Shown here: positions 1,919-24,705 of the stretch, in pieces
Layout of the letters: every line of letters begins with the position of its first letter
Numbering within the stretch: position 1 is the stretch's first letter
Assembly (NCBI GenBank): GCA_002706205.1
Contig: PAKC01000021.1
Span: 1 to 34,958, forward strand
Length of the DNA stretch: 34,958 nucleotides
Direction of reading: 5' to 3'
From: Halobacteriovoraceae bacterium
Lineage (GTDB): Bacteria > Bdellovibrionota > Bacteriovoracia > Bacteriovoracales > Bacteriovoracaceae
Position numbers and translations under genes: made by a program
Notes under the pieces: generated by a model
Databases searched by the model: none
Told to the model about the DNA's origin: nothing
The model's input: the letters and a program-made list of their open reading frames with translations, nothing else

Positions 1919-3814
1919 ATGAGAAAAAAGCTCATGATTATGGGAGGGGGTTTTTTAGTACTTGCTCTTATAACTTATTTTGTTATTGAAGTACAGGAAA
2001 CTAGTGTGACCAATCAGGATGTGGCTGAGGAGGAGGTTGAGCAGATATCATCAAAAGAGGAGACGTCGTTAAGTGAGAAGCCTTCATTGAAAAAGAAGAA
2101 CGAGTCTTTGACTGAGCCCTTAACTACAGATGTTTCTATTGATAATAAGTCCACAAATCCAGATGAAATAATTGAGAAGGATGTTTCCTTCTCGGATCAA
2201 GAACCTTCTCCATTTGATCCAGATATTGTTATTCTAACCAAAAATTTATCTGATTTACCCTCTGATTTAGTTAAAAACTCTTTTCTAGGAAAAGTTATTA
2301 CTAAAGAAACGATGTTTTATTATGAGGATGATCCTCAGTATCTAGGAGTGTTAGGTACCCTAAGAAGATTGTCTTTTGAGCATAATATAGAACTTAAAGA
2401 TAGTGTGATTAAATATATTCTCGCTATGCCAGGGGAGCTAGCATTGTGGAGAGGAGCAGATGGGAAACTTAAGGACTTTTTATTTATTTCAGATGAAAAA
2501 AGTCTCAACAATATAATTGTCGATTTTTATTTAAAGTTTAAACATTTAAGGTCGGATGATAATATAAGAACATTTTCTTATGGCGGGCAAGAAGGATACT
2601 ATCTAAAGATTGCCAATAAGGAGCTTGCAATCTTGGGTTATGGTAGCAAATTGTATATTACGAGCTTGCACCCCAAGTACTTTCCAAACAATTTAGAGGA
2701 TAAACTTAAAAGAAATATTTCTGAAACTGTGGGGGCTGACCTTGGGAAGGGATTTTATAAGAGGCTATTTAATATAGACTTTAAAGGTAAGCACTCTATT
2801 ATTTTGAATACAAATTATCTAACATTTGGGTACAGTTATTTTATCCCCTCATTAAAAGCAATTAGGCTGGACTTTCATGCCAAGGAATGGAGTGTTCACT
2901 CTTTTATGAGTAATAATGAGAAGCTCAAAACAGTTTCATCTGCTGAGTTATGGAAGGTGTTTCCAAAGTCTACAGCAATGTGCTCGGCTTTACCTGTTGA
3001 TAATAAAAAAATATTTAAAATATTAACAAACTATAAAGAATTAACTTTAAAAAGAATAAATGGCCAAAAAGCTATTCCAGCAGATGGTCTCTCTGCAGAC
3101 GATAGTGCTTCTGGAGATATTATTAATAAGTCAGTTGACCTTAAAAATCAGTTGCTGAGTGAAAAAGAAATCGAAGAGCTTGCCAACCATGTGATAGGTG
3201 TGTGCTGGTATGAACGTTCAACAATATATACCCCTTTATTCATCACGAAGGGTAAAAAATTAAACAAGATGAAAGGAAAATTTCATTTTTTATTTGAGCA
3301 GTTTGTGGGGGGAGTTGAGAGGGAACACAAAGTTAGTGAAGTCGAAATGAATGAGGAAAATGGTGTCACCGTATATTCGAGAGTCGTCAGTAGTCAATAT
3401 GGAGTTGAAGATGCTAATCAGCTTCAAAGAAAAAAACTTAAGTTTAATAAGTTTTTTAAAGCCAAGCTTGCTCACAATAATGAGTATATTATTTTTTCAC
3501 CAGATGGAAAGTTAGTTGATCTTGCAATTAGCACATTAAGTAAAAAGAGTCCGTCTGTGTTTGATGAGTTGAAACTTTCAAATAAGAATATTAGTTATTT
3601 ATTAAGTCCTTATCGTCTAAGTCAGCTTTTGGATAAATATATGAAAAAAGCTCTTCCGCATAGGCAAGAGTCAGTTTTTAGAAATGCAATTAAGAAGCAT
3701 TTGAGTGAAGCCTTTAGCAACTTATCCCAGTTGAAATCATTTGGGGTTGATATGCCAAAATTAAATGAAGAAGATTTTATTAGATGGCAAAAATTAAAGA
3801 TACATGAGCTATGA
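1919..3814 (+). CDS. yfaA: YfaA-like DUF2138 protein, first gene of the alpha-2-macroglobulin cluster
   Basis: A 631-residue protein with an N-terminal membrane anchor (MIMGGGFLVLALITYFVIEV, residues 7-26), a low-complexity Glu/Ser/Lys linker to about residue 95, and a long periplasmic domain. Length, anchor and position at the head of a yfaA-T-S-Q-P ordered cluster match the DUF2138 family (E. coli YfaA; MagA in Pseudomonas, as I recall it). These proteins are inner-membrane partners of a periplasmic alpha-2-macroglobulin. Assignment leans on gene order more than on motifs I can point to. The stop overlaps the next start by four bases (ATGA), indicating translational coupling. Confidence 0.75.
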   Translation: MRKKLMIMGGGFLVLALITYFVIEVQETSVTNQDVAEEEVEQISSKEETSLSEKPSLKKKNESLTEPLTTDVSIDNKSTNPDEIIEKDVSFSDQEPSPFDPDIVILTKNLSDLPSDLVKNSFLGKVITKETMFYYEDDPQYLGVLGTLRRLSFEHNIELKDSVIKYILAMPGELALWRGADGKLKDFLFISDEKSLNNIIVDFYLKFKHLRSDDNIRTFSYGGQEGYYLKIANKELAILGYGSKLYITSLHPKYFPNNLEDKLKRNISETVGADLGKGFYKRLFNIDFKGKHSIILNTNYLTFGYSYFIPSLKAIRLDFHAKEWSVHSFMSNNEKLKTVSSAELWKVFPKSTAMCSALPVDNKKIFKILTNYKELTLKRINGQKAIPADGLSADDSASGDIINKSVDLKNQLLSEKEIEELANHVIGVCWYERSTIYTPLFITKGKKLNKMKGKFHFLFEQFVGGVEREHKVSEVEMNEENGVTVYSRVVSSQYGVEDANQLQRKKLKFNKFFKAKLAHNNEYIIFSPDGKLVDLAISTLSKKSPSVFDELKLSNKNISYLLSPYRLSQLLDKYMKKALPHRQESVFRNAIKKHLSEAFSNLSQLKSFGVDMPKLNEEDFIRWQKLKIHEL

Positions 3815-4443
3815 TAAAATTTTTTCTTGGATTTATATTTCTTTTTATTTGTATGTCAACCTTTAGCAAGGTGCAAAAGTTAGATGTTAAAAATACGGAT
3901 ATTTTTAGGTCTTGGTTTGTGCGAATTATTGATGAGCAGTTGAGACAAGGTCCTTCCCCAAAGTGGGTTCAAAGAGATTGTGTTGGACTTGTTCGCTATG
4001 CCGTAAATGAATCTTTGAAAATTAAAAATGCAAAGTGGATGCATTCACATGGATTTGCAAATTCTCCAACACCTCCAAGTTTAAATATCAATCCAAAGAT
4101 CAGGGCCAAACTTGATAAATGGATACAATATGATGGGAAAACAACTGGAAGTTACATCTCGGCAATTGGGCTAATACAGGGAAATACTTCTTTTGTTTCA
4201 AAAGATATTAATCAGGTGAGCCCTGGAGATATCTTATTTTATGATATGCAAGACTCTCATCATATAATGATTTGGATGGGGAAGTATGTAGCCTATCATA
4301 CAGGATCAGTAACACAAAAAGATAATGGTTTAAGAAAAGTTAAATTTAATGAATTAATTAATTGGAAGGATAGTCGATGGAGACCAATACAAACAAATCC
4401 AAATTTCATTGGAATATTCAGACTTGGATTTTTATCTCGTTAG
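3811..4443 (+). CDS. yfaT: YfaT-like DUF1175 protein with Cys/His papain-like signature
   Basis: A 210-residue secreted protein with signal peptide MIKFFLGFIFLFICMSTFS, close to the ~207 residues of E. coli YfaT. It shows RDCVGLVR with Cys57 and DSHHIMIWMG with His150/His151, plus His163. This Cys-then-His arrangement resembles NlpC/P60-type cysteine hydrolases of the cell envelope, so a peptidoglycan or peptide substrate is plausible, but no activity is shown. It overlaps yfaA by four bases and yfaS by 67 bases, so all three are probably translated from one message. DUF1175 identity is by length, order and motif. Confidence 0.8.
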   Translation: MIKFFLGFIFLFICMSTFSKVQKLDVKNTDIFRSWFVRIIDEQLRQGPSPKWVQRDCVGLVRYAVNESLKIKNAKWMHSHGFANSPTPPSLNINPKIRAKLDKWIQYDGKTTGSYISAIGLIQGNTSFVSKDINQVSPGDILFYDMQDSHHIMIWMGKYVAYHTGSVTQKDNGLRKVKFNELINWKDSRWRPIQTNPNFIGIFRLGFLSR

Positions 4444-7400
4444 TATTTGTTAGCAGCGCTAGTGCTGGTGATTTATATCCAAGTAATTTTAAAGCTTATG
4501 TAGGTAAAAAGTTTTTTCTCTTATCAGACACAACCTTTTCGCCTAATGAAATTGCAAAAGTAAGGCTCGAAATTAGAAAAAATCTTCATGATAGGAAAAA
4601 AGTTAAGGACTATGGAGGGGCTGATATTGCTCTTTATAGAGTGAATGACCCCATTAAGTTTTTAAAGTCCCAGAAGAATTTACACAGAATAAAAACAAAA
4701 TATAATTATAAGCCCAAAGGTCTTGTCGCGAATGCTCTTAGCTATGTTTGGGACAGTTTTTATAAAAAATCACGTTTAGCCTGGCAGAGAATTCTATCTT
4801 TCAGTGCGAGAAAAAGTGCTGTTGAGGCTTCTGAGGATTTTAAACAGAAACCAGCACATACATATAAAACAAAATTTAAACATTTTAAGCAATTTCGAAA
4901 GATGAGAGGCTATGACCTTCTTAAAGAATTTAGATACCCAATAACCGATGCTAAGCCTATACAACCACCAGATGTAAGACTTTCTGGGAGTAGTCATAAT
5001 TTTAACAAGGCCAATCCTGGCAATGTTTATGTTCCACTAGGAAAGCTTGAGGGGGGACTGTATCTTGTTGAAGCTGTTATTGGTGATCATAGGGCAAATA
5101 CTCTTGTTTTTGTTTCAAACTCTGTACTTATTTCAAAAACCTCAAGTGAAGAGATGTTTATGTGGACTGTATCGAAAGAATCAGGTGATCCTGTCCCTAA
5201 AACGAATGTTCTTGTGACTGATGGTTTAGGTGTTTTAAAGAAAGGTGTTACAGATGACAATGGAATCTTGAAAATAAAGATGAAAACTCCTGAACTTGTA
5301 TATTTTATTGGTCAAGACTCACAAGGTGGAGTTTTTATCTCTGAGAATTATTATTATGATAGTGAAATTTATTCTGAAAAATTATTTACTGTTACTGATA
5401 GACCTTTATATCGTCCAGGAGATAAAGTTTCAGTAAAGGTGATAGGACGAAGATTTATTAACTCATCTTCTTCGAAGTGGTTAAAAGATAAAATATTTAA
5501 AGCATTGATTTTAGATTCAGCGGGAACAGTTTTGTTGACAAAAGAATTTAGTGTTAAACAAATAAATGTAGGAGGAGAATTTTCATTTCGCTTACCTCGT
5601 TATGCTCTTCCGGGCGGTTACACAATTCTTCTAAGAGATAATTTAAAGAGCTATTCCTCTGAGTTTAGAGTTTCTAAATATACGAAGCCTCATTATAATA
5701 TTGATGTTTTATTTGATAAAAAAAGATTTAAATTGAGAGAAAAAATATCAGGTAGTTTGAAGCTTACATACTCTAATGGAAAACCTGTAAAGTTCGCTGA
5801 TATTGATCTTGTAGTTAGAAGGCAAAAACTTAACATTATTGAGGGGGAAAGAGACGCAGAGTCTTTGTTTCCGATAAAAATTAATGATTTAAAGTTAAGC
5901 TCAGACCATTCAGGTAAAGTTAATTTTGAGTTACCTGAAGTTAATGTACCTAGCCGATACATCTTAAATGTGCAAGCTAAAGATGATGCAAGCTTTAGGG
6001 TAAAGGCTACAAAAGAACTTCTTGTTGAGTTGGACACACCAGTGTTTTCAATTCAAAGCGATAAATTATTTTCTAATATTGGCGAAGAGATTAGTTTTAG
6101 TCTGGAGCAAAAGTTAGCTTTTTCAAAGAAAGAAAAAGAAGGAAAATTAACATGGAAAATAATCAAACTTGAAGACCAGTGGATACAAAAAGGAAATGTT
6201 TCGGATAACAAATTTAAAATAAAATTTGAAGAGGCAGGAACATATAAAATTTTATTATTAAATGATACAGGTAATGTTGTTGGTGGAAAACCCCACATCG
6301 TTCGAGGGGCAGACTTAGAGACATTACCAGGTACAGTTGAGATCGTTTTAGACAAAGAAGAATATGATTTAAATGATAAAGTTAAGATACTTATTAAGTT
6401 TTCTGAGCCTGTTGAAAATGCATTACTTACTCTTGAAAGAGATAAAGTCGAAAACTATTCAATTGCTGGTAAGTCATCAAATTGGATTAAGGTAAATAAG
6501 TCTTTAGATTCTCAATGGATAGCTGAAATCCCTGTTAAAAAGTTTTTTGCCCCAAATATTACTTTTTCTGTTTTGTTTGTAAAGAATGGAAAGTTTATTT
6601 TCAATAACAAGGGAATAAAAGTTAAAATGCCTAAAATTAAAATATCTTATACTCTTGATAAGTTTGATTATGCTGTTAATGAAGAAGTAAAACTTGGTAT
6701 CAAAACAACTTATTTGGGTGATCCCATTTCGAGTAATATAACTTTTAGTGTTGTTGATGAGATGATTTATGTTCTCCAGCCTGAATTAGCTCCCAAGATT
6801 TCAGACTTCTTTTATCATAGAAGAAGAAATCAAGTAAAAACAACTTCGAGCTTAGACTTTCACACTTACGATGCTTCTGTGTCTGCAACTGGTAGGTACG
6901 ATTATTCTTCTAACTATAGTAATCGCCCTTTAAAAATGAGAGAGAGACCTAGGCGAGAAGATGTTGATACTGCCTATTGGAAAACGAATATTAAAACTGA
7001 TCATAATGGAGAGGCACATGTTCAGTTTAAATTACCAGATTCCATTACGAGGTGGAGAATGACTTCTCGTGCCATCTCTAATGATGGGGCTGTCGGACAA
7101 GCAGTTGCACACGTGCGGTCATTTCAAAGTGCTTATCTTAAATGGGGTGGACTTACTGACTTTAGATATGGAGATGAATCAATAGTGAATGTTATGGCCT
7201 TCAATTTAGATCCAACTGATTTGAAGGGAGAATTAAGTCTAAAGGGTGGCAATACAGACTTTAAAAGCTTGGTTACTTTAAAGCCCGGGATTAATTTTAC
7301 GCCTGTAAGCTTTCAAGCAAATAAAACTCAAAATATATCAATGAGTTTGAAAGGGAGTGGGTTTCAAGATAAGCTTGAAAAGAAAATTGAAGTTGTGCCT

Positions 7401-8999
7401 ACAAACTGGATGAGTCTGATGTCTAAAGATGTAAAGCTTAAGAATGGTAAAAACTCTTTGCAATTACCTGAGGGCGCTTTTAATTTCCGGCTTGTAGCAT
7501 TTAGTAACTTATATCAGAGATTTATGAAAGCTGCTGAGGAGCTTATTACTTATCCGCATGGTTGTGTGGAGCAAACTGCGAGTAAATTAATTCCACTTAG
7601 TATCGCATATGGCATATTGAAAAGAGCTAAAAATAGAAGGGGTGATCTTGTTAAAATTAGAGAGAAGGTTGTAAATGGTAGAGAAAGATTAGTAAATCTT
7701 GCTAACCGAAAAGGATACTTTGGGTGGTATGAAAATATGCCTAATGATAGCTATATGACAGCATATGCTTATCTGGCAGACTTTTATGCAGGAAAGGTTT
7801 TAGGTTTTTCATTTACAGATGAGCATTGGGATAAGATTCTTGAGGCATTTAGAGATTATTCAAGTGATAATGTTTTAAGAAATTCTATTGTTCTTTGGAT
7901 CTCATCTCATTTGGGCCGGCCAGTACAAAGTATGCTTGAATCTCAATTAAATAAAATTTCAGAACTACTAGATTCAAAAGAAATACCAGCTTATGGGGGG
8001 CGTAACTATATAATGTCACAAAGGAGTTCAAAAAAACATTTTGAACTCGCTTCGATTATGTTGAAGTTATCTAGTATCAAATTGGCTAAAAAGGGATATT
8101 ACTTAGAAAAAGATACTCATAAAAAATTGGATAAGATATCAGCTGAAACGATGGTGTCGCTAGAAAATGATGAACATCCTTTATTGCAAGCGGCATCGCT
8201 AAGTCTAATGTCATATGAGCTTAATAAACAAAAAATTGTAGCGAAAGCAAATAGAATTCTAAAAAAAGTTTCACGTTCACAATCAACAGCTGATAAGTCA
8301 ATGACCTTAATACTAATGCATGAAGCCTTGGGAAGTATTCAACTCAATGATACTGATATAAAAATCAAGGGAGGAGTTAAGAAAATAAAGTCTATCTACG
8401 GACTCGATTCTTGGCAAATTACCGATCCCAATAAGAGCGACATTACTATCAGTGGATCTGCTGATCAAAATATGGACTTTAGGCTCTACTACGATTCCTT
8501 TAAAAAGGATGAGCATAAGCTTAAGGTTAAGATTACAAGAAATATATATTCTTTGGAAAAAAAAGAGAATAAGTACATTGCATCAGTTATTGACCTGAAA
8601 GATGGTGTTAATACAAATGATAAATTTATTGATGAAATAATAGTTGAGCCAGAAGAGAAGAGTAACAACACCCGCTTTGACTATGGAATGATAGAGGTCC
8701 CACTTCCACCTGGAGCAAATATTCAGAATGAGTTAGGAAAAATTCAAGTTGTGCAGGTATTTGAATCTGGTAGTGAGGAAACTATTGAAATTGATGAAGA
8801 AGCTCGTTTTGGGGATTTAAAATATAAAATTCCAGTTAAGGAGCTATCTCGAAAAAGAGTATATCGTCATGTTGTTCAATTTTCTGCAAAAGGAAAATAT
8901 AAACTTCCAATGACTCGTTTTTTTGAAATGTATACACCTGATAAGAAAGCATATAGGAAAAAAAATGAGGTTTCGATATGGGAGCTAAATGTCAAGTAG
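4377..8999 (+). CDS. yfaS: Bacterial alpha-2-macroglobulin (YfaS/MagD type) with intact thioester motif
   Basis: A 1540-residue periplasmic protease-trap protein. The N-terminus carries a signal peptide ending near VSSASA (residue 31). Macroglobulin beta-domains follow, with the conserved TVTDRPLYRPGDKVSVKV segment near residues 338-355. The helical thioester domain has HGCVEQ with Cys1063 and Gln1066, the pair that forms the covalent-capture thioester. The C-terminus has the receptor-type GMIEVPLPPGA segment. The length matches E. coli YfaS (~1534). The start is set by GGAAGGA at 4364-4370, six bases before the ATG, which forces a 67-base overlap with yfaT; no later in-frame ATG, GTG or TTG precedes the signal peptide. 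Known role of the family: trapping foreign proteases in the periplasm. The YfaS-type branch is, as I recall, usually described as lacking CxEQ, so its presence here is notable. Confidence 0.93.
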   Translation: METNTNKSKFHWNIQTWIFISLVFVSSASAGDLYPSNFKAYVGKKFFLLSDTTFSPNEIAKVRLEIRKNLHDRKKVKDYGGADIALYRVNDPIKFLKSQKNLHRIKTKYNYKPKGLVANALSYVWDSFYKKSRLAWQRILSFSARKSAVEASEDFKQKPAHTYKTKFKHFKQFRKMRGYDLLKEFRYPITDAKPIQPPDVRLSGSSHNFNKANPGNVYVPLGKLEGGLYLVEAVIGDHRANTLVFVSNSVLISKTSSEEMFMWTVSKESGDPVPKTNVLVTDGLGVLKKGVTDDNGILKIKMKTPELVYFIGQDSQGGVFISENYYYDSEIYSEKLFTVTDRPLYRPGDKVSVKVIGRRFINSSSSKWLKDKIFKALILDSAGTVLLTKEFSVKQINVGGEFSFRLPRYALPGGYTILLRDNLKSYSSEFRVSKYTKPHYNIDVLFDKKRFKLREKISGSLKLTYSNGKPVKFADIDLVVRRQKLNIIEGERDAESLFPIKINDLKLSSDHSGKVNFELPEVNVPSRYILNVQAKDDASFRVKATKELLVELDTPVFSIQSDKLFSNIGEEISFSLEQKLAFSKKEKEGKLTWKIIKLEDQWIQKGNVSDNKFKIKFEEAGTYKILLLNDTGNVVGGKPHIVRGADLETLPGTVEIVLDKEEYDLNDKVKILIKFSEPVENALLTLERDKVENYSIAGKSSNWIKVNKSLDSQWIAEIPVKKFFAPNITFSVLFVKNGKFIFNNKGIKVKMPKIKISYTLDKFDYAVNEEVKLGIKTTYLGDPISSNITFSVVDEMIYVLQPELAPKISDFFYHRRRNQVKTTSSLDFHTYDASVSATGRYDYSSNYSNRPLKMRERPRREDVDTAYWKTNIKTDHNGEAHVQFKLPDSITRWRMTSRAISNDGAVGQAVAHVRSFQSAYLKWGGLTDFRYGDESIVNVMAFNLDPTDLKGELSLKGGNTDFKSLVTLKPGINFTPVSFQANKTQNISMSLKGSGFQDKLEKKIEVVPTNWMSLMSKDVKLKNGKNSLQLPEGAFNFRLVAFSNLYQRFMKAAEELITYPHGCVEQTASKLIPLSIAYGILKRAKNRRGDLVKIREKVVNGRERLVNLANRKGYFGWYENMPNDSYMTAYAYLADFYAGKVLGFSFTDEHWDKILEAFRDYSSDNVLRNSIVLWISSHLGRPVQSMLESQLNKISELLDSKEIPAYGGRNYIMSQRSSKKHFELASIMLKLSSIKLAKKGYYLEKDTHKKLDKISAETMVSLENDEHPLLQAASLSLMSYELNKQKIVAKANRILKKVSRSQSTADKSMTLILMHEALGSIQLNDTDIKIKGGVKKIKSIYGLDSWQITDPNKSDITISGSADQNMDFRLYYDSFKKDEHKLKVKITRNIYSLEKKENKYIASVIDLKDGVNTNDKFIDEIIVEPEEKSNNTRFDYGMIEVPLPPGANIQNELGKIQVVQVFESGSEETIEIDEEARFGDLKYKIPVKELSRKRVYRHVVQFSAKGKYKLPMTRFFEMYTPDKKAYRKKNEVSIWELNVK

Positions 9000-10662
9000 A
9001 AGACTTTGGTTAATATTTGTTCTAATAAGCTTTACCTATACTATGGTATGGGGGAGTGACTTATACGTTGAAAAACGCAATGGTGAAATAAAGGTATATT
9101 CTTTTAATTTTAAAGAAGAGCAATTAGTTGAGAAGAAAAATAATAATATAAAAACACCACTTGGTAGTTTGTGGAAACTGTTCATATATACTTACAATAA
9201 AGAGAATAGTCTCTCGAGTTCCCCTTACAGATGTAAGGGGAATTTAAATCAAGAAATTTTTTGCTGCAAAAAAGGTGAGAGTATTGATGAAGATGATGCT
9301 CTTGCGAAGTCCTGTGGCCTTTTTTTTTCACCTAGCAGACTTCAAATATCTAAAAAGAAGTGGAAAGACTTTTGGTGGAAAAGGAAGATTAGGGCCGAGT
9401 GGTTATTAGGGCTTGATAACCTTAAGCCAGAAACCATAGTCAGTGTTAAAAGTCTTTTATCAGTACTAGAAAGAGTTAAGAAATTACCTAAGGCTAAAGA
9501 TCACTTAGATAAAGCTCTTGTTGGAGTTATTCTTAATGGTACGGCTAGAAGTTCATTGAGTGAACTTGGGGCATACCCAAGATTAAAAACATTTACGTGG
9601 GACGACCCTAAGAAAAAAACTAAGTACATAGGTGGTTTTGCAGGGTGGTTAACAGATGGAACTCCTATTTGGGGAAGGGGAAGTGGGAAAAGCTCAGACT
9701 ACCTAAAAAGAGTTTCAAGTATTCTAAATAATCATTGGAAAAAAACTGTTAGGTTTCATGTCAATCAGTGCGTGAGCGTTAGATATTTTCATGATTATCA
9801 AATCAAAAGCATAATCGACTTATCGACAAATGAGAAAATTCAAGAAGGTGCCTTAAATGGCACATATCGACTAAGTTTTCAGTCAGGTCGTGATTTAACT
9901 TTAAATTCTAATAATGATTTGTTTCTACGAAGTTATAATGAAAAGCTTTTAATAGATGGACGTATGAATATGACCTCTTATATCGCTAGAGTATTGGATC
10001 GAGAGGTGAGTAGTAAATACCCCAGTGCTGCAGAAGCTTTTAGTATCGTGATTCGAACTTACTTAAAAGAAAGGGCACAGAAAATTTCAGGTTGTTTTCA
10101 TGTTATAGATTCTTCTAAGTTTCAAAGAGTCTCTGCAAATATTCCGTCTGAAGGAGCCATAGCCGCTTCTTCAAAAACGGCAGGATTAATTTTAAATAAT
10201 GTTGGAAATATAAAGTATCATTTGAACAAAGATGGAAAAAATATGATTTCTTGGATAAAAGCTAAGGGACTGGATTTATTAGGAAATAATTCAGAACAAA
10301 TTTTAAAGAGTTTTTATCCAAATTCAAAAATTATTTATGATAGAGATAGATACTTTAGTTTATGCGGAACACTTCTTAGGGCCAATATGTGGCTAAAGGA
10401 AAAAACTCCTCGTTGGCACAAGGTTTTAGTGAAGCACCCAGGCTACGAAAGGCCAGATAGTTTTAAAGTTTGTAAATTAAATAGTGGTGCACCTTTTGCC
10501 AATAAAAAAACAAATGAAATTTTTGTTCGTGGGTTTGATGGATTTGAAAATCAATATTCAATTGCCCATGAATATTTACATCTAGCATTTAAATATCATC
10601 CCATAGGTAATAACGAGAGAGAAATAGATAAAATTGCAAAAAAGCTTGTAACAATGTTTTGA
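8989..10662 (+). CDS. yfaQ: YfaQ-like DUF2300 protein: SxxK region, SpoIID-like region and HExxH motif
   Basis: A 557-residue secreted protein (signal peptide to about Trp21/Gly22) matching E. coli YfaQ in length and position. Three parts stand out. PLGSLWKLF holds Ser60-x-x-Lys63 and is followed by ALAKSCGLFF and later GFAGWLTDGTPIW, an arrangement like penicillin-binding-type serine enzymes. Residues ~335-400, with AFSIVIRTYL and AASSKTAGLILNN, resemble the SpoIID/LytB fold of peptidoglycan lytic enzymes. The C-terminus has AHEYLHLAFKYH, where His527, Glu528, His531 and His537 have HExxHxxxxxH zinc-protease spacing. The family relation is sure by context; the three domain readings are my inference by eye. 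It overlaps yfaS by 11 bases with GGGAG as its RBS. Confidence 0.8.
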   Translation: MSSRRLWLIFVLISFTYTMVWGSDLYVEKRNGEIKVYSFNFKEEQLVEKKNNNIKTPLGSLWKLFIYTYNKENSLSSSPYRCKGNLNQEIFCCKKGESIDEDDALAKSCGLFFSPSRLQISKKKWKDFWWKRKIRAEWLLGLDNLKPETIVSVKSLLSVLERVKKLPKAKDHLDKALVGVILNGTARSSLSELGAYPRLKTFTWDDPKKKTKYIGGFAGWLTDGTPIWGRGSGKSSDYLKRVSSILNNHWKKTVRFHVNQCVSVRYFHDYQIKSIIDLSTNEKIQEGALNGTYRLSFQSGRDLTLNSNNDLFLRSYNEKLLIDGRMNMTSYIARVLDREVSSKYPSAAEAFSIVIRTYLKERAQKISGCFHVIDSSKFQRVSANIPSEGAIAASSKTAGLILNNVGNIKYHLNKDGKNMISWIKAKGLDLLGNNSEQILKSFYPNSKIIYDRDRYFSLCGTLLRANMWLKEKTPRWHKVLVKHPGYERPDSFKVCKLNSGAPFANKKTNEIFVRGFDGFENQYSIAHEYLHLAFKYHPIGNNEREIDKIAKKLVTMF

Positions 10663-10670
10663 GGTCATAT

Positions 10671-11429
10671 ATGAAAAAGTTAATCTTAAGTACATCAATA
10701 CTTATCATTGGATATAGTTACGCTGACAGTATAAAAATAACAAGTCCTAAAGGTGGGTGGCGTGACTCTAGTACAAAAAAAGTGAAGTTTAGTCAGAAAG
10801 TACAATATCCAGATGTAGATATAAGTATGCCAGAAAATCAGCCAGATACTGGTAAAATTGAAGGTCAAATTTTGGGAAGCATAAAAGATAGTCCAAAGCC
10901 TTTAAAGTTAATTGTTAATGGAAATGCAATGCCTCTTAAAGCGTCTAACGGAAAATTTTCTAGACCTTACTCTTTTGGTAATGGTGCGAATAATGTAGAA
11001 ATAAGATCTTCAGATGGAAAAACTCGCTCAAATGTACAATTTTTCGATGTGAAAAAAGGTGGGACACAATCAAGAATTAGAATTATTTTATCTTGGGATA
11101 CAGATGGCACTGACCTAGATTTACATGTTATTAGTCCTAATGGAGAACATTGTTACTATAGAAATAGAAAGTTAAAAGATGGTAGTGCACTAGATGTTGA
11201 TGTGACTACTGGCTATGGACCAGAAATTTTTGCATCTCCTGGAGTCCAGAAGGGACCTTATCTTATTTATGTCAATTATTATGGTCGGCGCAATAGTAAG
11301 ATCATTACAACAGCGACAGTAAGTGTCATCACTAATGAAGGAACTGTGGATGAAAAAGTCAATGTGAGAAGGTTTCCTTTAAGGCATCCTGGTGAACTAA
11401 CTTTTGTACATTCATTCGTTTATTTATAA
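10671..11429 (+). CDS. yfaP: YfaP-like DUF2135 periplasmic protein
   Basis: A 252-residue secreted protein, the last gene of the yfa cluster. I start it at ATG 10671, where a signal peptide MKKLILSTSILIIGYSYA begins and GAGG stands seven bases upstream; a TTG at 10659 in the same frame is less likely. Residues ~55-125 form a beta-rich domain, and residues ~140-215 carry the DUF2135 hallmark WDTDGTDLDLHVISPNGEHC followed by GYGPE. The Asp-rich strand pattern suggests metal or ligand binding. In Pseudomonas the corresponding protein belongs to an alpha-2-macroglobulin complex. The gene starts nine bases after the yfaQ stop. Confidence 0.88.
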   Translation: MKKLILSTSILIIGYSYADSIKITSPKGGWRDSSTKKVKFSQKVQYPDVDISMPENQPDTGKIEGQILGSIKDSPKPLKLIVNGNAMPLKASNGKFSRPYSFGNGANNVEIRSSDGKTRSNVQFFDVKKGGTQSRIRIILSWDTDGTDLDLHVISPNGEHCYYRNRKLKDGSALDVDVTTGYGPEIFASPGVQKGPYLIYVNYYGRRNSKIITTATVSVITNEGTVDEKVNVRRFPLRHPGELTFVHSFVYL

Positions 11430-13316: not shown

Positions 13317-14378
13317 TTACCCTATAACGTAAGTTGTTCCTCTGCCTTGTCCTTTTTTCTTAATGATGCCTTTATCAACAAGTCTTTTGAGAAGGTCTTT
13401 TAAACCATCGCGAGACATATCAACATTATCCAAGATAAAGGAGATTTTACATTCTTCCTCTGCTTCAATAATGCTATAAACTTGTTTCTCATTGTCATTC
13501 ATGACTGATGCAGGTGACTTATGAATAAGTTTACTATTTAAGAAATCAGTTTGAACGGTTAGAACTTTTAAAAAGTAACTAATCCAATAGTTATATTGTG
13601 CTTCTTCATGAAAAGTGGATTGTGTATTTCTTAAAGAAGTATAATAACCTTCCTTGTTATCTTCGATAACTTTTTCATGAGAAGTATATTGCGCCCACTT
13701 GTAACCGTTTTTTAAAAGTAGAATTGTGGTTAGTAATCTGCTCAGTCTTCCGTTACCATCTCTAAAAGGGTGGATGGCCAAAAAGTGAACAATAAAACCA
13801 GCAATAAGAATGAGAGGCTGACATTCTTTTGCTTTTTTCATTTGCACATAATCAGAAATAAGGTCGGCCATAGCAGTTTCAGTCTCAAGCCCTGGAGGAG
13901 CTGTCTTAAACCATACTTTGATTATCTTTCCTGTTGCTTGATCTTGTTCGACAACATCATTAGGAACATCTTTATATGCTCCTCTTTGAGTGGAAGGAAG
14001 TTGATCTTCTGTAAGCTCACTTGTTAAAAGTTGATGAAGCTCTCGAATCATTTTTTCTGAAACATCGAGCTTTTCAAAATTGTCATAGATGTAATTAAGA
14101 GTTTTAACATAACCAGCAACTTCTCTTTCAGAACGAGACGACATATCGTTAATCTCGCAACCTTTTTCAACCAACTCTTTGACTTGCTCGTCCGCTAGAA
14201 TTGCACCTTCTATTCTGGTGGATGCACCAGAAGAGGTAATGATTGATGTCTTTTTTAGACTTTCGACAAGTGCTGGTCTTTGAAACTTAGTTGTCTCAAA
14301 AGCTCCTTGGAAGCGTTCAATTTTAGTGATCTGATTGACCTGTTCACCTGTAAGTACATGATTTTTAATAGTCTTCAT
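13317..14378 (-). CDS. Fic-domain AMP-transferase with N-terminal inhibitory motif and winged helix
   Basis: A 353-residue Fic protein that would transfer AMP (or another nucleotide part) from NTPs to hydroxyl side chains of a target. The catalytic loop HPFRDGNGR is intact at residues 203-211 with His203 as the base. SGASTRIEG (Ser53-Glu57-Gly58) fits the (S/T)xxxE(G/N) inhibitory helix placed N-terminally, the class II arrangement, so the enzyme is probably self-inhibited. Residues ~310-353 form a winged-helix with the basic end KKKGQGRGTTYVIG, which may bind DNA. The longer frame upstream to 14546 translates the operator repeats and is rejected; ATG 14378 begins the conserved sequence. Similar in length to Shewanella SoFic (~372). 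No antitoxin gene is adjacent. Confidence 0.9.
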   Translation of the reverse strand: MKTIKNHVLTGEQVNQITKIERFQGAFETTKFQRPALVESLKKTSIITSSGASTRIEGAILADEQVKELVEKGCEINDMSSRSEREVAGYVKTLNYIYDNFEKLDVSEKMIRELHQLLTSELTEDQLPSTQRGAYKDVPNDVVEQDQATGKIIKVWFKTAPPGLETETAMADLISDYVQMKKAKECQPLILIAGFIVHFLAIHPFRDGNGRLSRLLTTILLLKNGYKWAQYTSHEKVIEDNKEGYYTSLRNTQSTFHEEAQYNYWISYFLKVLTVQTDFLNSKLIHKSPASVMNDNEKQVYSIIEAEEECKISFILDNVDMSRDGLKDLLKRLVDKGIIKKKGQGRGTTYVIG

Positions 14379-14383
14379 AGAAA

Positions 14384-14497
14384 ATACCCAATTAACACCT
14401 GTAAAACACCTATAATTATAACTCAAAAACACCCAAAAAACACCTACAAAACACCCGTATTTTAGTATTTTATTAAAATACGAAATTATTAGGGTGT
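14384..14497 (-). repeat. Phased GGTGT(TTT) repeat array surrounding the fic promoter
   Basis: On the + strand the motif ACACC (once ATACC), usually preceded by AAA, ends at 14388, 14399, 14410, 14433, 14444 and 14455. Within each group of three the spacing is exactly 11 bases, one turn of the helix, and the 23-base gap between groups holds the fic -10 element. A seventh, inverted copy (GGTGT) sits at 14493-14497 beyond a palindrome with CGTATTTT and AAAATACG arms. This looks like an operator where several protein molecules line up on one face of the DNA. Confidence 0.8.
14415..14420 (-). promoter_or_regulatory. Consensus -10 element of fic inside the repeat array
   Basis: TATAAT on the - strand at 14420-14415 lies in the gap between the two groups of three 11-bp repeats. 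The expected start near 14408 leaves a 30-base leader containing the downstream repeats. No good -35 hexamer is present at 16-18 bases: that position is occupied by repeats, so the repeat-binding factor may act as activator or repressor. Confidence 0.55.
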
Positions 14498-14656
14498 TTC
14501 GCTTTGAGCATTCAAGAATCCCTTTCGTGACATGATATTGTGTCATGAGTGGGGAGCGGGGTCGATTCAGTTTTTAAGCATTTTGTCTTGTGATTTATCT
14601 AAAGTAGAAAAAAGTAGACTGATTATGAAACACAATGAAAATTTATGAACTAAATA
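14456..14656. other. Intergenic region between fic operator and GNAT promoter
   Basis: No gene seen. The stretch holds the CGTATTTT/AAAATACG palindrome (about 14456-14482) and an inverted repeat TGACA-TGATATTG-TGTCA at 14528-14545, which could be an operator for either divergent gene. The remainder is AT-rich with no readable frame beyond a few codons. Confidence 0.4.
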
Positions 14657-14685
14657 TTGACAGGGATTGTCACCTCGACTATTTT
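14657..14685 (+). promoter_or_regulatory. Strong predicted promoter of the attenuated GNAT operon
   Basis: A perfect TTGACA -35 (14657-14662) is followed after 17 bases by TATTTT (14680-14685). The start near 14692 gives a leader of about 145 bases that contains the leader peptide and the terminator before the first acetyltransferase gene. Confidence 0.7.
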
Positions 14686-14729
14686 CATGAAACTTAATCT
14701 CATATCTCTAAAAAACCAAGGAGGCCTTT

Positions 14730-14783
14730 ATGAAAAAATCATCTTTTATTCAATGTTGGGCATTCTTGGGTCTTTTCAAATAA
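14730..14783 (+). CDS. 17-residue leader peptide
   Basis: A perfect AAGGAGG ribosome binding site (14718-14724) stands five bases before an ATG that opens only 17 codons, encoding MKKSSFIQCWAFLGLFK, then TAA at 14781-14783. The second half of this frame is the 5' arm of the intrinsic terminator that follows, so translation and terminator folding exclude one another. That architecture is that of a regulatory leader peptide rather than a functional small protein. Candidate sensing residues are the Cys9-Trp10 pair, or the whole nascent chain if a ribosome inhibitor is the signal. No run of a single amino acid points to a biosynthetic attenuator. Confidence 0.75.
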   Translation: MKKSSFIQCWAFLGLFK

Positions 14784-14807
14784 ACAAAGACTCATCTGCC
14801 CTTTTTT
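14758..14807 (+). terminator. Intrinsic terminator acting as attenuator before the acetyltransferase genes
   Basis: GGGCA (14758-14762) pairs with TGCCC (14797-14801), and inside it GGGTCTTT (14768-14775) pairs with AAAGACTC (14786-14793) with one G-U. The structure is followed at once by six T (14802-14807). The 5' arms lie inside the leader peptide frame and the TAA stop is in the loop. The terminator lies 30 bases before the downstream ATG, so in the default state most transcripts should end here. Confidence 0.8.
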
Positions 14808-14837
14808 AATTAACTTAAAACAAAGGGTTTTATTTAA

Positions 14838-15782
14838 ATGAAATTAACTAATGATGATGTGCGCAGCTTTGCACAAGAAGAACTTAATACATTTGATCTC
14901 TCAAATATTGAACTAGATATTAACTTAGCTCTAAAAGAGCTGAGTGATGAAATTGTTTCTGAGTGGAATGAATTAAATAGTAACGAAGTTATGGATTCAC
15001 GTAACAATTATTTTGAAGTGCCTAATACAAAAAGTAGTGATTATGCTGAAAAATTACTGGAACTAGGTGGAAATAAAAAGGTTATCTATGGCATCCGACA
15101 CATGGGTGGACATAAAGATTTACCATTCATAAATCTCAAACCAAACTTCGGGATTAATAATGTCAGAGAAGTACTCGAAATATATAAGAAAGTTAAGGAG
15201 GAATTTACGGCCTTTAATCCTCTTTATTTAAGTTTCTGGTCACCTAAAAAAACTGATGTGGATTTTATTGGCTCAACCTATTTGGTGACAAGATCCAAAG
15301 ACATTAAATTAATGAAGCCTTGGGAAGGTGAAGCATCACTTGAACTTAAAAAGGTCGTGGATGACTCATATTACGATTGGTACAAATCTGGTTATGAAGA
15401 GTTCCATAAGGAAAGACCTGACTTAGAAAAAAAGGTAACTTTAAATTCATTAGATTCAATGCGAGATTCAGTTGGGCAGGGATTAATGTATGAAGTCTAT
15501 TATGATGGTGAGAAGATGGGCATAATTGCTGGTGAGAGTTCTTCATTACTTGGGCATTCCGCAGTTTACTTTCATGAAATTTTTATTTCTAAAAAGTGGA
15601 AGGGCAAAGGCCTTGCTAAAGCTATGCAGAGAAAATTTGTGGAAATGAGCACAAAAGATGATGACTTTATTTGGGGGACAGTTGATAGTCATAACTTACC
15701 TTCTTATAAAACAGCTTTATCAAATGGAAGAAAACCAATCAGGTATGAGTGTTTTATTAAAACGAAGGTGGCAGAAATATGA
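14838..15782 (+). CDS. GNAT-family N-acetyltransferase with extra N-terminal domain
   Basis: A 314-residue protein. The C-terminal part (about residues 170-310) is a GNAT domain: HEIFISKKWKGKGLAKAMQR carries the acetyl-CoA-binding K-G-K-G-L-A turn of motif A, and WGTVDSHNLPSYKTALSNGRK is the motif B region with the conserved Asn. Residues 1-165 match no family I recognise; they are acidic at first, then have a mixed alpha/beta pattern, and could form a second, degenerate GNAT fold. The substrate is unknown. A weak AAAGGG site lies ten bases before the ATG, downstream of the attenuator. The stop overlaps the next acetyltransferase gene by four bases. Confidence 0.8.
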   Translation: MKLTNDDVRSFAQEELNTFDLSNIELDINLALKELSDEIVSEWNELNSNEVMDSRNNYFEVPNTKSSDYAEKLLELGGNKKVIYGIRHMGGHKDLPFINLKPNFGINNVREVLEIYKKVKEEFTAFNPLYLSFWSPKKTDVDFIGSTYLVTRSKDIKLMKPWEGEASLELKKVVDDSYYDWYKSGYEEFHKERPDLEKKVTLNSLDSMRDSVGQGLMYEVYYDGEKMGIIAGESSSLLGHSAVYFHEIFISKKWKGKGLAKAMQRKFVEMSTKDDDFIWGTVDSHNLPSYKTALSNGRKPIRYECFIKTKVAEI

Positions 15783-16255
15783 GAGTAAGAAAAGCAGTTG
15801 AGAGTGACCTGCTTGATATTTATATGATGGGATATGATGTATGGGCAGAGGGAGCGCAAGAACAAGATTATCTTGAGCAATGCTCCCTGTCTTCAAAGTA
15901 CAAGAGAGGTTGTTGGTGGGTTTTAGAACATGATTCAGAAGTTGTTAGTTCTCTCATTATCTATACTTTTCCAGATAAATGTTTTGGAATAGGTTCATTG
16001 GCTACAAGTTTAGAGCGTAGAAAAAATGAATATGCCACAAATCTATTAAAATATATGGTTGATAATCTGAAGACAGATGCTAATGGAGTTTTTCTGTACT
16101 CAGATCTAGATACTTCATTCTATGAAAAGCATGGTTTTGAGGAAATTCCCGAAGAGCTTCAGCTTTATAAAGAATCTAGGTGTATGTATTTAAGGGAGCT
16201 TGGGCCACATACGTTTAGAGAAGACATTCCTTTGGTCATTCAAGAGTATTTTTAA
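15779..16255 (+). CDS. Small GNAT-family acetyltransferase
   Basis: A 158-residue single-domain GNAT protein starting in the ATGA overlap with the previous gene, so the two are translationally coupled. GIGSLATSLERRKNEYATNLLKYMV corresponds to motif A but with a modified turn (RRKNEYA in place of R-x-x-G-x-G/A), and FYEKHGFEEIPEELQLY to the end of motif B. The unusual pyrophosphate turn may mean weaker or altered acetyl-CoA binding. It would act together with the preceding acetyltransferase under the same attenuator. Substrate unknown; detoxification of an antibiotic or metabolite, or modification of a translation component, are both possible. Confidence 0.75.
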   Translation: MRVRKAVESDLLDIYMMGYDVWAEGAQEQDYLEQCSLSSKYKRGCWWVLEHDSEVVSSLIIYTFPDKCFGIGSLATSLERRKNEYATNLLKYMVDNLKTDANGVFLYSDLDTSFYEKHGFEEIPEELQLYKESRCMYLRELGPHTFREDIPLVIQEYF

Positions 16256-16322: not shown

Positions 16323-16736
16323 ATGTCTAATATCATTCAACTTATAGTCAAAAATAAGTGGCGAAATAAAGAGCTTTTATACCAAAAATACGTCATTGAA
16401 AGGCGAACTTTAAATGAGCTGGCGGTAGAGTTTGGGGTGGCCCGTCAGACTATATCTAAACAGATCAAAGAGTTTGGAATTCAAACTCGAGTTCCAGGAA
16501 CTTTGCAAAATAGAAAGCGTGGGCTTGCGTACGGAGCTAGGTGTCAGGAACGAGAAGTCAGAGCACATAAGCGAGAATTAGAGAATATCTATAAAATGAG
16601 AGAGCTTCGAGAGAAGGGATTTAGTTATTGGAAGATAGCGGACATATTTAACTCAATGGGGATCCCAACTAAGAATCGTAGGGGGAGATGGCATGCAAAA
16701 TCTATTCAATCAATACTAGCTAAAGAAAGGAATTAA
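16323..16736 (+). CDS. Recombinase-type helix-turn-helix protein without catalytic domain, copy 1
   Basis: A 137-residue basic protein. Residues ~18-55 (LNELAVEFGVARQTISKQIKEFGI) form a helix-turn-helix, and residues ~90-135 (MRELREKGFSYWKIADIFNSMGIPTKNRRGRWHAKSIQSIL) match the C-terminal DNA-binding Recombinase-domain repeat of large serine recombinases. The serine resolvase catalytic domain is absent, so it is more likely a DNA-binding regulator or accessory factor than a recombinase. A paralogue of matching layout lies at 24301-24705. The ATG has no good Shine-Dalgarno and sits directly after a hairpin. It precedes the FecR-like gene but is separated from it by a promoter. Confidence 0.75.
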   Translation: MSNIIQLIVKNKWRNKELLYQKYVIERRTLNELAVEFGVARQTISKQIKEFGIQTRVPGTLQNRKRGLAYGARCQEREVRAHKRELENIYKMRELREKGFSYWKIADIFNSMGIPTKNRRGRWHAKSIQSILAKERN

Positions 16737-24402: not shown

Positions 24403-24705
24403 ATGTCCTCCAGATCAACAGTCACGAAGTATATCAATGATTTTGGCATTGCAAAAAGAGAAGTAGGTTCGAATAAGAATCGTAAACGAGGTGTTCCCTA
24501 TGGGTATGAGTTCGTTGATGGAGAACTTAAAGAAGTAACCAGTGAACAGGAAGTGATCTCACTAATTGCTAAGCTTAGGAAGTTAGAAATGAGCTTTGGG
24601 AAGATTGCAAGAGTACTGAATGATCAACAAGTTCCAACTAAAAATAAAGTGAAACTGTGGGATAGAAAAACTGTCTATGTAATTTATCAAAGGAGTAAAA
24701 AATGA
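24403..24705 (+). CDS. Recombinase-type helix-turn-helix protein, copy 2; real N-terminus probably upstream
   Basis: From ATG 24403 the product is 100 residues: the end of an HTH (SSRSTVTKYINDFGI) and a Recombinase-type C-terminal module (KLRKLEMSFGKIARVLNDQQVPTKNKVKLWDRKTVYVI). The in-frame codons back to about 24292 continue the homology to copy 1 (DHQYLTQKY, FTANEVSQEIM against NKELLYQKY, LNELAVEFGV), so the true protein is longer. Yet between the in-frame stop at 24241 and 24403 there is no ATG, GTG or TTG; where copy 1 has ATG, copy 2 has ACT (24292). Translation may use a rare start (ATC/ATT near 24301) or a frameshift from the ATG at 24243, or the gene may be damaged. Its stop overlaps the next gene by four bases, arguing it is or was translated. 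Confidence 0.6.
   Translation: MSSRSTVTKYINDFGIAKREVGSNKNRKRGVPYGYEFVDGELKEVTSEQEVISLIAKLRKLEMSFGKIARVLNDQQVPTKNKVKLWDRKTVYVIYQRSKK

Follow-up and report, generated by a model that had tools for sequence, protein, structure and literature searches.

A candidate ribosome-operated leader before a tandem GNAT gene in a Halobacteriovoraceae bacterium

Why should a reading frame of 17 codons, with a ribosome-binding site of its own, stand between a promoter and an acetyltransferase gene? The question is raised by a stretch of 34,958 nucleotides (contig PAKC01000021.1, assembly GCA_002706205.1), here called the window, which is part of a 2.9 Mb draft genome of a Halobacteriovoraceae bacterium. A putative promoter is followed there by a short leader open reading frame (ORF) with a strong Shine-Dalgarno sequence (SD), a hairpin and two genes of GNAT proteins, GNAT1 and GNAT2. 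A sequence-only reading of this DNA had proposed a ribosome-controlled attenuator. The promoter, the AAGGAGG, the 17-codon ORF, the hairpin with a U6 run ending at 14807 and the two GNAT genes were all found where that reading had placed them, and its central idea, attenuation of a GNAT gene by the ribosome on a leader ORF, is supported; the ORF proves to be conserved. The leader is best read as a translational attenuator operated by the ribosome, of the same working type as those of ermC and vmlR (probability roughly 0.6). From models of the folded leader, GNAT1 would probably be made only upon ribosome stalling at the start of translation, as occurs with some antibiotics.

Competing helices and their conservation

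Folding of the window leader gives, in place of the full terminator hairpin, two helices that the sequence-only reading had not listed. In one, CCAAGGA and GCCU around the leader SD (14716-14727) pair with 14758-14769, towards the end of the leader ORF. In the other, GCCCUUU after the stop codon (14798-14804) pairs with the GNAT1 SD, AAAGGGU (14822-14828). If the leader SD, the ORF end, the 3' arm of the hairpin and the GNAT1 SD are termed segments 1 to 4, the helices found are 1:2, 2:3 and 3:4. Segment 2 can thus take either 1 or 3, and segment 3 either 2 or 4, so that the pairings are mutually exclusive, and one of them lies over the ribosome-binding site of the gene. The fold as a whole has a z of -3.1 relative to dinucleotide shuffles. 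The 5' arms of the hairpin, GGGCA (14758-14762) and GGGTCTTT (14768-14775), lie within the leader ORF, as had been proposed; they face AAAGACTC (14786-14793) and TGCCC (14797-14801), with T6 (14802-14807) next, and the ORF stop codon sits in the loop.

Have the partners changed together? In nine complete leaders, native partners and partners swapped between loci were set against each other by duplex energy. Helix 2:3 has -15.3 kcal/mol with native and -7.6 with swapped partners (P = 5e-5), helix 1:2 has -14.5 vs -11.2 (P = 7e-4), and helix 3:4 has -8.5 vs -7.0 (P = 0.04, or 0.02 with refined segments). RNAalifold independently recovers helix 1:2, with two-sided changes in 5 pairs. Genome G075 offers an example. 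The TGGGCA of segment 2 in the window is AGAACA there, and the two partner segments are altered to a GUUC type.

Of 129 genomes of the same family, 18 hold a match to GNAT1, in variable gene neighbourhoods. The same kind of leader precedes 10 of the 17 well-aligned orthologues; nine copies are complete and the tenth is cut by a contig end. Each complete leader has, between promoter and gene, a strong SD and an ORF of 17-19 codons, and this ORF ends 35-64 nucleotides before the GNAT start. A strict rule (strong SD and an ORF of 10-30 codons) is satisfied by 7/15 orthologues vs 2/130 neighbouring genes taken as controls. From SD to stop, the leaders of six genomes align ungapped over 72 columns, and the GNAT1 proteins are 43-55% identical to that of the window. 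In the GNAT1 tree, whose resolution is too low for counting gains and losses, each of the two supported clades includes loci with the leader. Conservation in relatives, which the sequence-only reading had made a test of its proposal, holds for the leader ORF; its peptide is poorly conserved, and the terminator is not conserved.

Is the leader confined to this gene? A covariance model of its 5' part (R1), run against the 129 family genomes, found convincing copies only before GNAT1. Eleven weak R1 matches were inspected as possible leaders of other genes and were rejected, as they resemble ordinary gene starts or chance. The sensitivity of R1 is limited; the divergent leaders of G012, G043 and G049 escaped it, and absence of the leader elsewhere is thus not proven. 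No leader was seen before GNAT1 relatives outside the family. One GNAT1 relative (L020, 6001-6918; 44% identity) is on a contig labelled Chitinophagales, either a transfer or a mis-binned contig. No GNAT1 relatives were found in phages and viral contigs, and only remote GNATs on plasmids. An Rfam scan of the window gave only a tRNA, with no known leader or riboswitch above the gathering score, and PADLOC gave no match.

Ribosome position and the sense of the switch

Where on the leader would a ribosome matter? The sequence-only reading had called for folding with the leader region blocked. A ribosome footprint was placed on each leader codon in the nine loci, and the cost of opening the GNAT1 SD was computed; the absolute probability of an open SD is near zero in all states and hence uninformative. 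The mean cost, 4.4 kcal/mol in free RNA, drops to 2.5-2.6 when the ribosome occupies codons 1-4; over codons 6-16 it is 4.5-5. The direction is the same in 7-8 of the nine loci across four footprint sizes. Blocking thus eases opening at codons 1-4 only, and a ribosome parked there is the only one predicted to free the GNAT1 ribosome-binding site.

These values suggest a scheme. In free RNA, 1:2 would hold the leader SD against the ORF end and 3:4 would mask the GNAT1 site, and GNAT1 would be shut. A normally translating ribosome would cover segment 2, 3:4 could still form, and GNAT1 would stay shut. A ribosome held at about codons 1-4, for example by an inhibitor that stalls it on the start codon, would cover segment 1 and leave segment 2 free; segment 2 could then capture segment 3 and release the GNAT1 site. 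The enzyme might in turn acetylate an inhibitor or a ribosome-associated target. The three helices, their covariation and the leader ORF are observed across genomes; what we infer from them is that the switch works in this direction, that a start-codon stall is its signal and that GNAT1 has a part in the response to translation inhibition.

What, then, would the signal be? An antibiotic-type stall or a nascent-chain effect had been suggested. The leader peptides differ among loci and are poorly conserved, so that comparison of the peptide in relatives lends no help to a conserved arrest peptide of the ermC kind. Codons 2-9 lack conservation of a coding type (identity at the three codon positions is 0.57/0.38/0.52, lowest at the second). 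Together with the geometry of codons 1-4, this favours arrest at or just after initiation; an early stall is the likelier trigger on these models, with an antibiotic as a plausible cause, and the nascent-chain effect loses ground.

Might the hairpin act at the level of transcription instead? In an unlikely alternative, 2:3 is an intrinsic terminator and 1:2, or a ribosome on segment 2, the antiterminator; transcription of GNAT1 would require a leader ribosome that is absent or late in the ORF, e.g. paused at Cys9-Trp10. The window copy of 2:3 does run into U6, with a d'Aubenton-Carafa-type score of d = 4.6 at 14802, which is weak, yet the only candidate above zero on the + strand in about 23 kb. 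A simple terminator scan missed it, probably because that scan admits loops of up to 8 bases and this one has 10. U-rich tails are present in five relatives. However, the scores of all eight complete relatives are negative or undefined, three of the nine leaders (G073, G043, G049) lack the U-tract, the GNAT1 SD of a readthrough RNA would still be masked by 3:4, and Cys9-Trp10 is kept beyond the window only in G013. What is retained is masking. A nine-pair 3:4 helix persists in G073 without the U-tract; in G043 and G049, which have no U-tract either, the GTG start region is a possible partner of segment 3; and in most copies the U-run matches the complement of the SD AAAAGGG as well. SD masking is therefore taken as the ancestral function. 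Intrinsic termination, which the sequence-only reading had put at the core, loses that place; in the window copy it may be an addition, though an uncertain one. Nor does the leader behave as an attenuator of amino-acid biosynthesis (trp/his type), as the terminator scores positive only in the window and a codon run, rightly noted as missing from the window leader, is absent from every leader compared.

A combination of the two layers, in which a weak terminator trims basal transcription, the SD-masking helix governs translation and the timing of ribosome and polymerase decides, has a model in vmlR, where a terminator and an SD-sequestering stem-loop occur together (PMC9226507). Both elements are present in the window copy too, but here helix 2:3 would be shared with opposite signs, unlike in vmlR, and with a terminator that is not conserved this combination is rather improbable. 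Could the helices be simple by-products of an SD-rich sequence of low G+C, around a plain upstream ORF or a ligand-binding RNA? Low G+C lets U-rich and A/G-rich segments pair easily, and the covariation of 3:4 is modest. Against this, swapped partners pair much worse in 2:3 and 1:2, the spacing from SD to stop is fixed and Rfam gives no match; such an origin is very improbable.

Translational attenuation itself has points that weigh against it. Helix 3:4, on which the masking depends, is the weakest of the three, and G013, G075, G015 and G043 are individually non-significant. In the footprint simulation G013 and G015 show nearly no switch relative to free RNA, and the predicted ON state keeps a residual cost of about 1-3.5 kcal/mol for opening the GNAT1 SD. 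In the window, helix 2:3, which is supposed to release the gene, precedes U6 as a weak terminator and would there work in the opposite sense to SD release. Seven orthologues have no leader; in several of these loci GNAT1 sits closely behind another gene.

Known attenuators compared

In attenuators of the ermC type, helices 1:2 and 3:4 mask the gene SD, and a ribosome stalled on segment 1 allows 2:3, which frees it. The arrangement proposed here is the same. ermC depends on an arrest peptide and a macrolide-dependent stall at codon Ile9, whereas here the peptide is unconserved and the prediction places the effective stall at codons 1-4. In Bacillus subtilis vmlR, arrest of the initiating ribosome on a short upstream ORF, uORF(MIN), refolds a leader in which a terminator occurs together with a hairpin that sequesters the SD of the resistance gene (PMC9226507). 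The vmlR uORF has 3 codons and a single-stranded SD, the target is an ABCF ATPase and the logic is that of an antiterminator (PMC9226507); the present leaders have an ORF of 17-19 codons whose SD takes part in the switch as one of its strands, they precede a GNAT gene, and conservation does not extend to the terminator.

The toiL-topAI-yjhQ-yjhP operon of Escherichia coli is also under a translational attenuator with an upstream ORF, on whose start codon tetracycline or retapamulin stalls the ribosome, and it includes a putative acetyltransferase, YjhQ (PMC12121999). By analogy with vmlR (PMC9226507) and with this operon (PMC12121999), arrest at initiation is plausible here. Kinship with the toiL/YjhQ system was considered and rejected, as YjhQ has no significant blastp or phmmer match to GNAT1 or GNAT2; a TopAI-like gene, present in the toiL operon, was not seen at the window locus. 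In three genomes (L025, L031 and L036) GNAT1 has, no more than about 3 kb away, a gene for a class I methyltransferase, which recalls yjhP beside yjhQ, the resemblance to YjhP being at the general methyltransferase level only. In the aac/aad leader RNA, SD1, anti-SD2 and SD2 likewise swap partners before an aminoglycoside-modifying gene; that RNA is integron-associated and is a proposed aminoglycoside riboswitch that would bind the drug directly (PMC7588185), and the likeness seen is one of working scheme.

The leader is new as an instance, a lineage-specific leader before a tandem GNAT that is undescribed as far as Rfam and literature searches show; the ermC/vmlR mechanism is already known. 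Literature searches found no leader-peptide attenuator for Bdellovibrionota. More tentative, and on balance doubtful, is the full proposal of an undescribed lineage-specific attenuator whose own SD is the sensor strand, and in which ribosomes trapped at initiation, not elongating ones, would induce a new family of tandem GNATs, whose part would be to inactivate an inhibitor of translation or to protect the ribosome.

The acetyltransferases and their surroundings

The sequence-only reading described two GNAT proteins, one with an unknown N-terminal domain. Pfam supports both as GNATs, the match of the C-terminal half of GNAT1 to Acetyltransf_1 (PF00583) being weak but above cut-off. In the AlphaFold model (predicted local distance difference test, pLDDT, 92.6) both halves of GNAT1 match tandem GNATs, e.g. 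VipF, MshD and MAB_4324, so that by this model the N-terminal domain is a degenerate GNAT fold. With a profile match and two GNAT-like domains, GNAT1 is a tandem GNAT N-acetyltransferase. GNAT2 follows GNAT1 in two genomes only, that of the window and G075. It is thus outside the conserved unit, and the coupled pair put forward as the regulated unit gives way to GNAT1. The acetyl-CoA loop of GNAT2 (15779-16255) is unusual, ERRKNEYA vs the usual ERKKGYG in the G075 homologue, and the enzyme may be catalytically altered. As to the promoter (Table 1), TTGACA-17-TATTTT is joint best among 12 promoter-like sites in 5 kb, and shuffles yield as many sites.

Table 1. Leader elements and acetyltransferase genes, in window coordinates
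Feature	Position	Strand	Remarks	Basis
Putative sigma-70 promoter, TTGACA-17-TATTTT	14657-14685	+	TTGAC at similar distance in several relatives (by eye)	Promoter scan
Segment 1: leader SD (AAGGAGG, 14718-14724) and flanks	14716-14727	+	Partner is segment 2 (CCAAGGA:UUCUUGG, GCCU:GGGC)	Folding, RNAalifold
Leader ORF, 17 codons, MKKSSFIQCWAFLGLFK	14730-14783	+	Counterparts of 17-19 codons at 9 orthologous loci	
Segment 2: leader ORF end	14758-14775	+	Pairs with segment 1 or segment 3	Folding, partner-swap energies
Segment 3: 3' arm (AAAGACTC, TGCCC)	14786-14801	+	Terminator-like helix with segment 2; GCCC and U-tract pair with segment 4	
U6 tract	14802-14807	+	Weak intrinsic terminator in window copy (d = 4.6), not conserved; also pairs with GNAT1 SD region	
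Segment 4: GNAT1 SD (AAAGGG, 14822-14827) and upstream A-rich stretch	14815-14828	+	Masked by segment 3 (14798-14809)	
GNAT1, tandem GNAT, degenerate N-terminal and canonical C-terminal domain	14838-15782	+	314 aa	Pfam, structure model
GNAT2, single-domain GNAT	15779-16255	+	4-base overlap with GNAT1; adjoins GNAT1 only here and in G075	Pfam

Small recombinase/helix-turn-helix-like proteins are encoded near GNAT1 in the window (16323-16736, 24403-24705) and at the loci of G013, G012 and G098, in G012 with one of them beside the leader; such neighbours hint at cassette-like mobility. Divergent from the leader is a gene for a Fic-domain protein with a C-terminal winged helix (13317-14546, - strand), whose listed start may be too far upstream. 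Further away is an apparent yfaSTQP-like operon (1919-11429) with a large alpha-2-macroglobulin that carries a CVEQ thioester motif, seen by eye.

If the attenuator works as proposed, it would add the sensing of stalled ribosomes by a leader ORF to the Bdellovibrionota, and finding which drug or stress opens it should reveal the substrate of the GNAT1 family. The compact design, with the leader SD inside the switch, could also serve as a simple reporter for inhibitors that act at the initiation stage.
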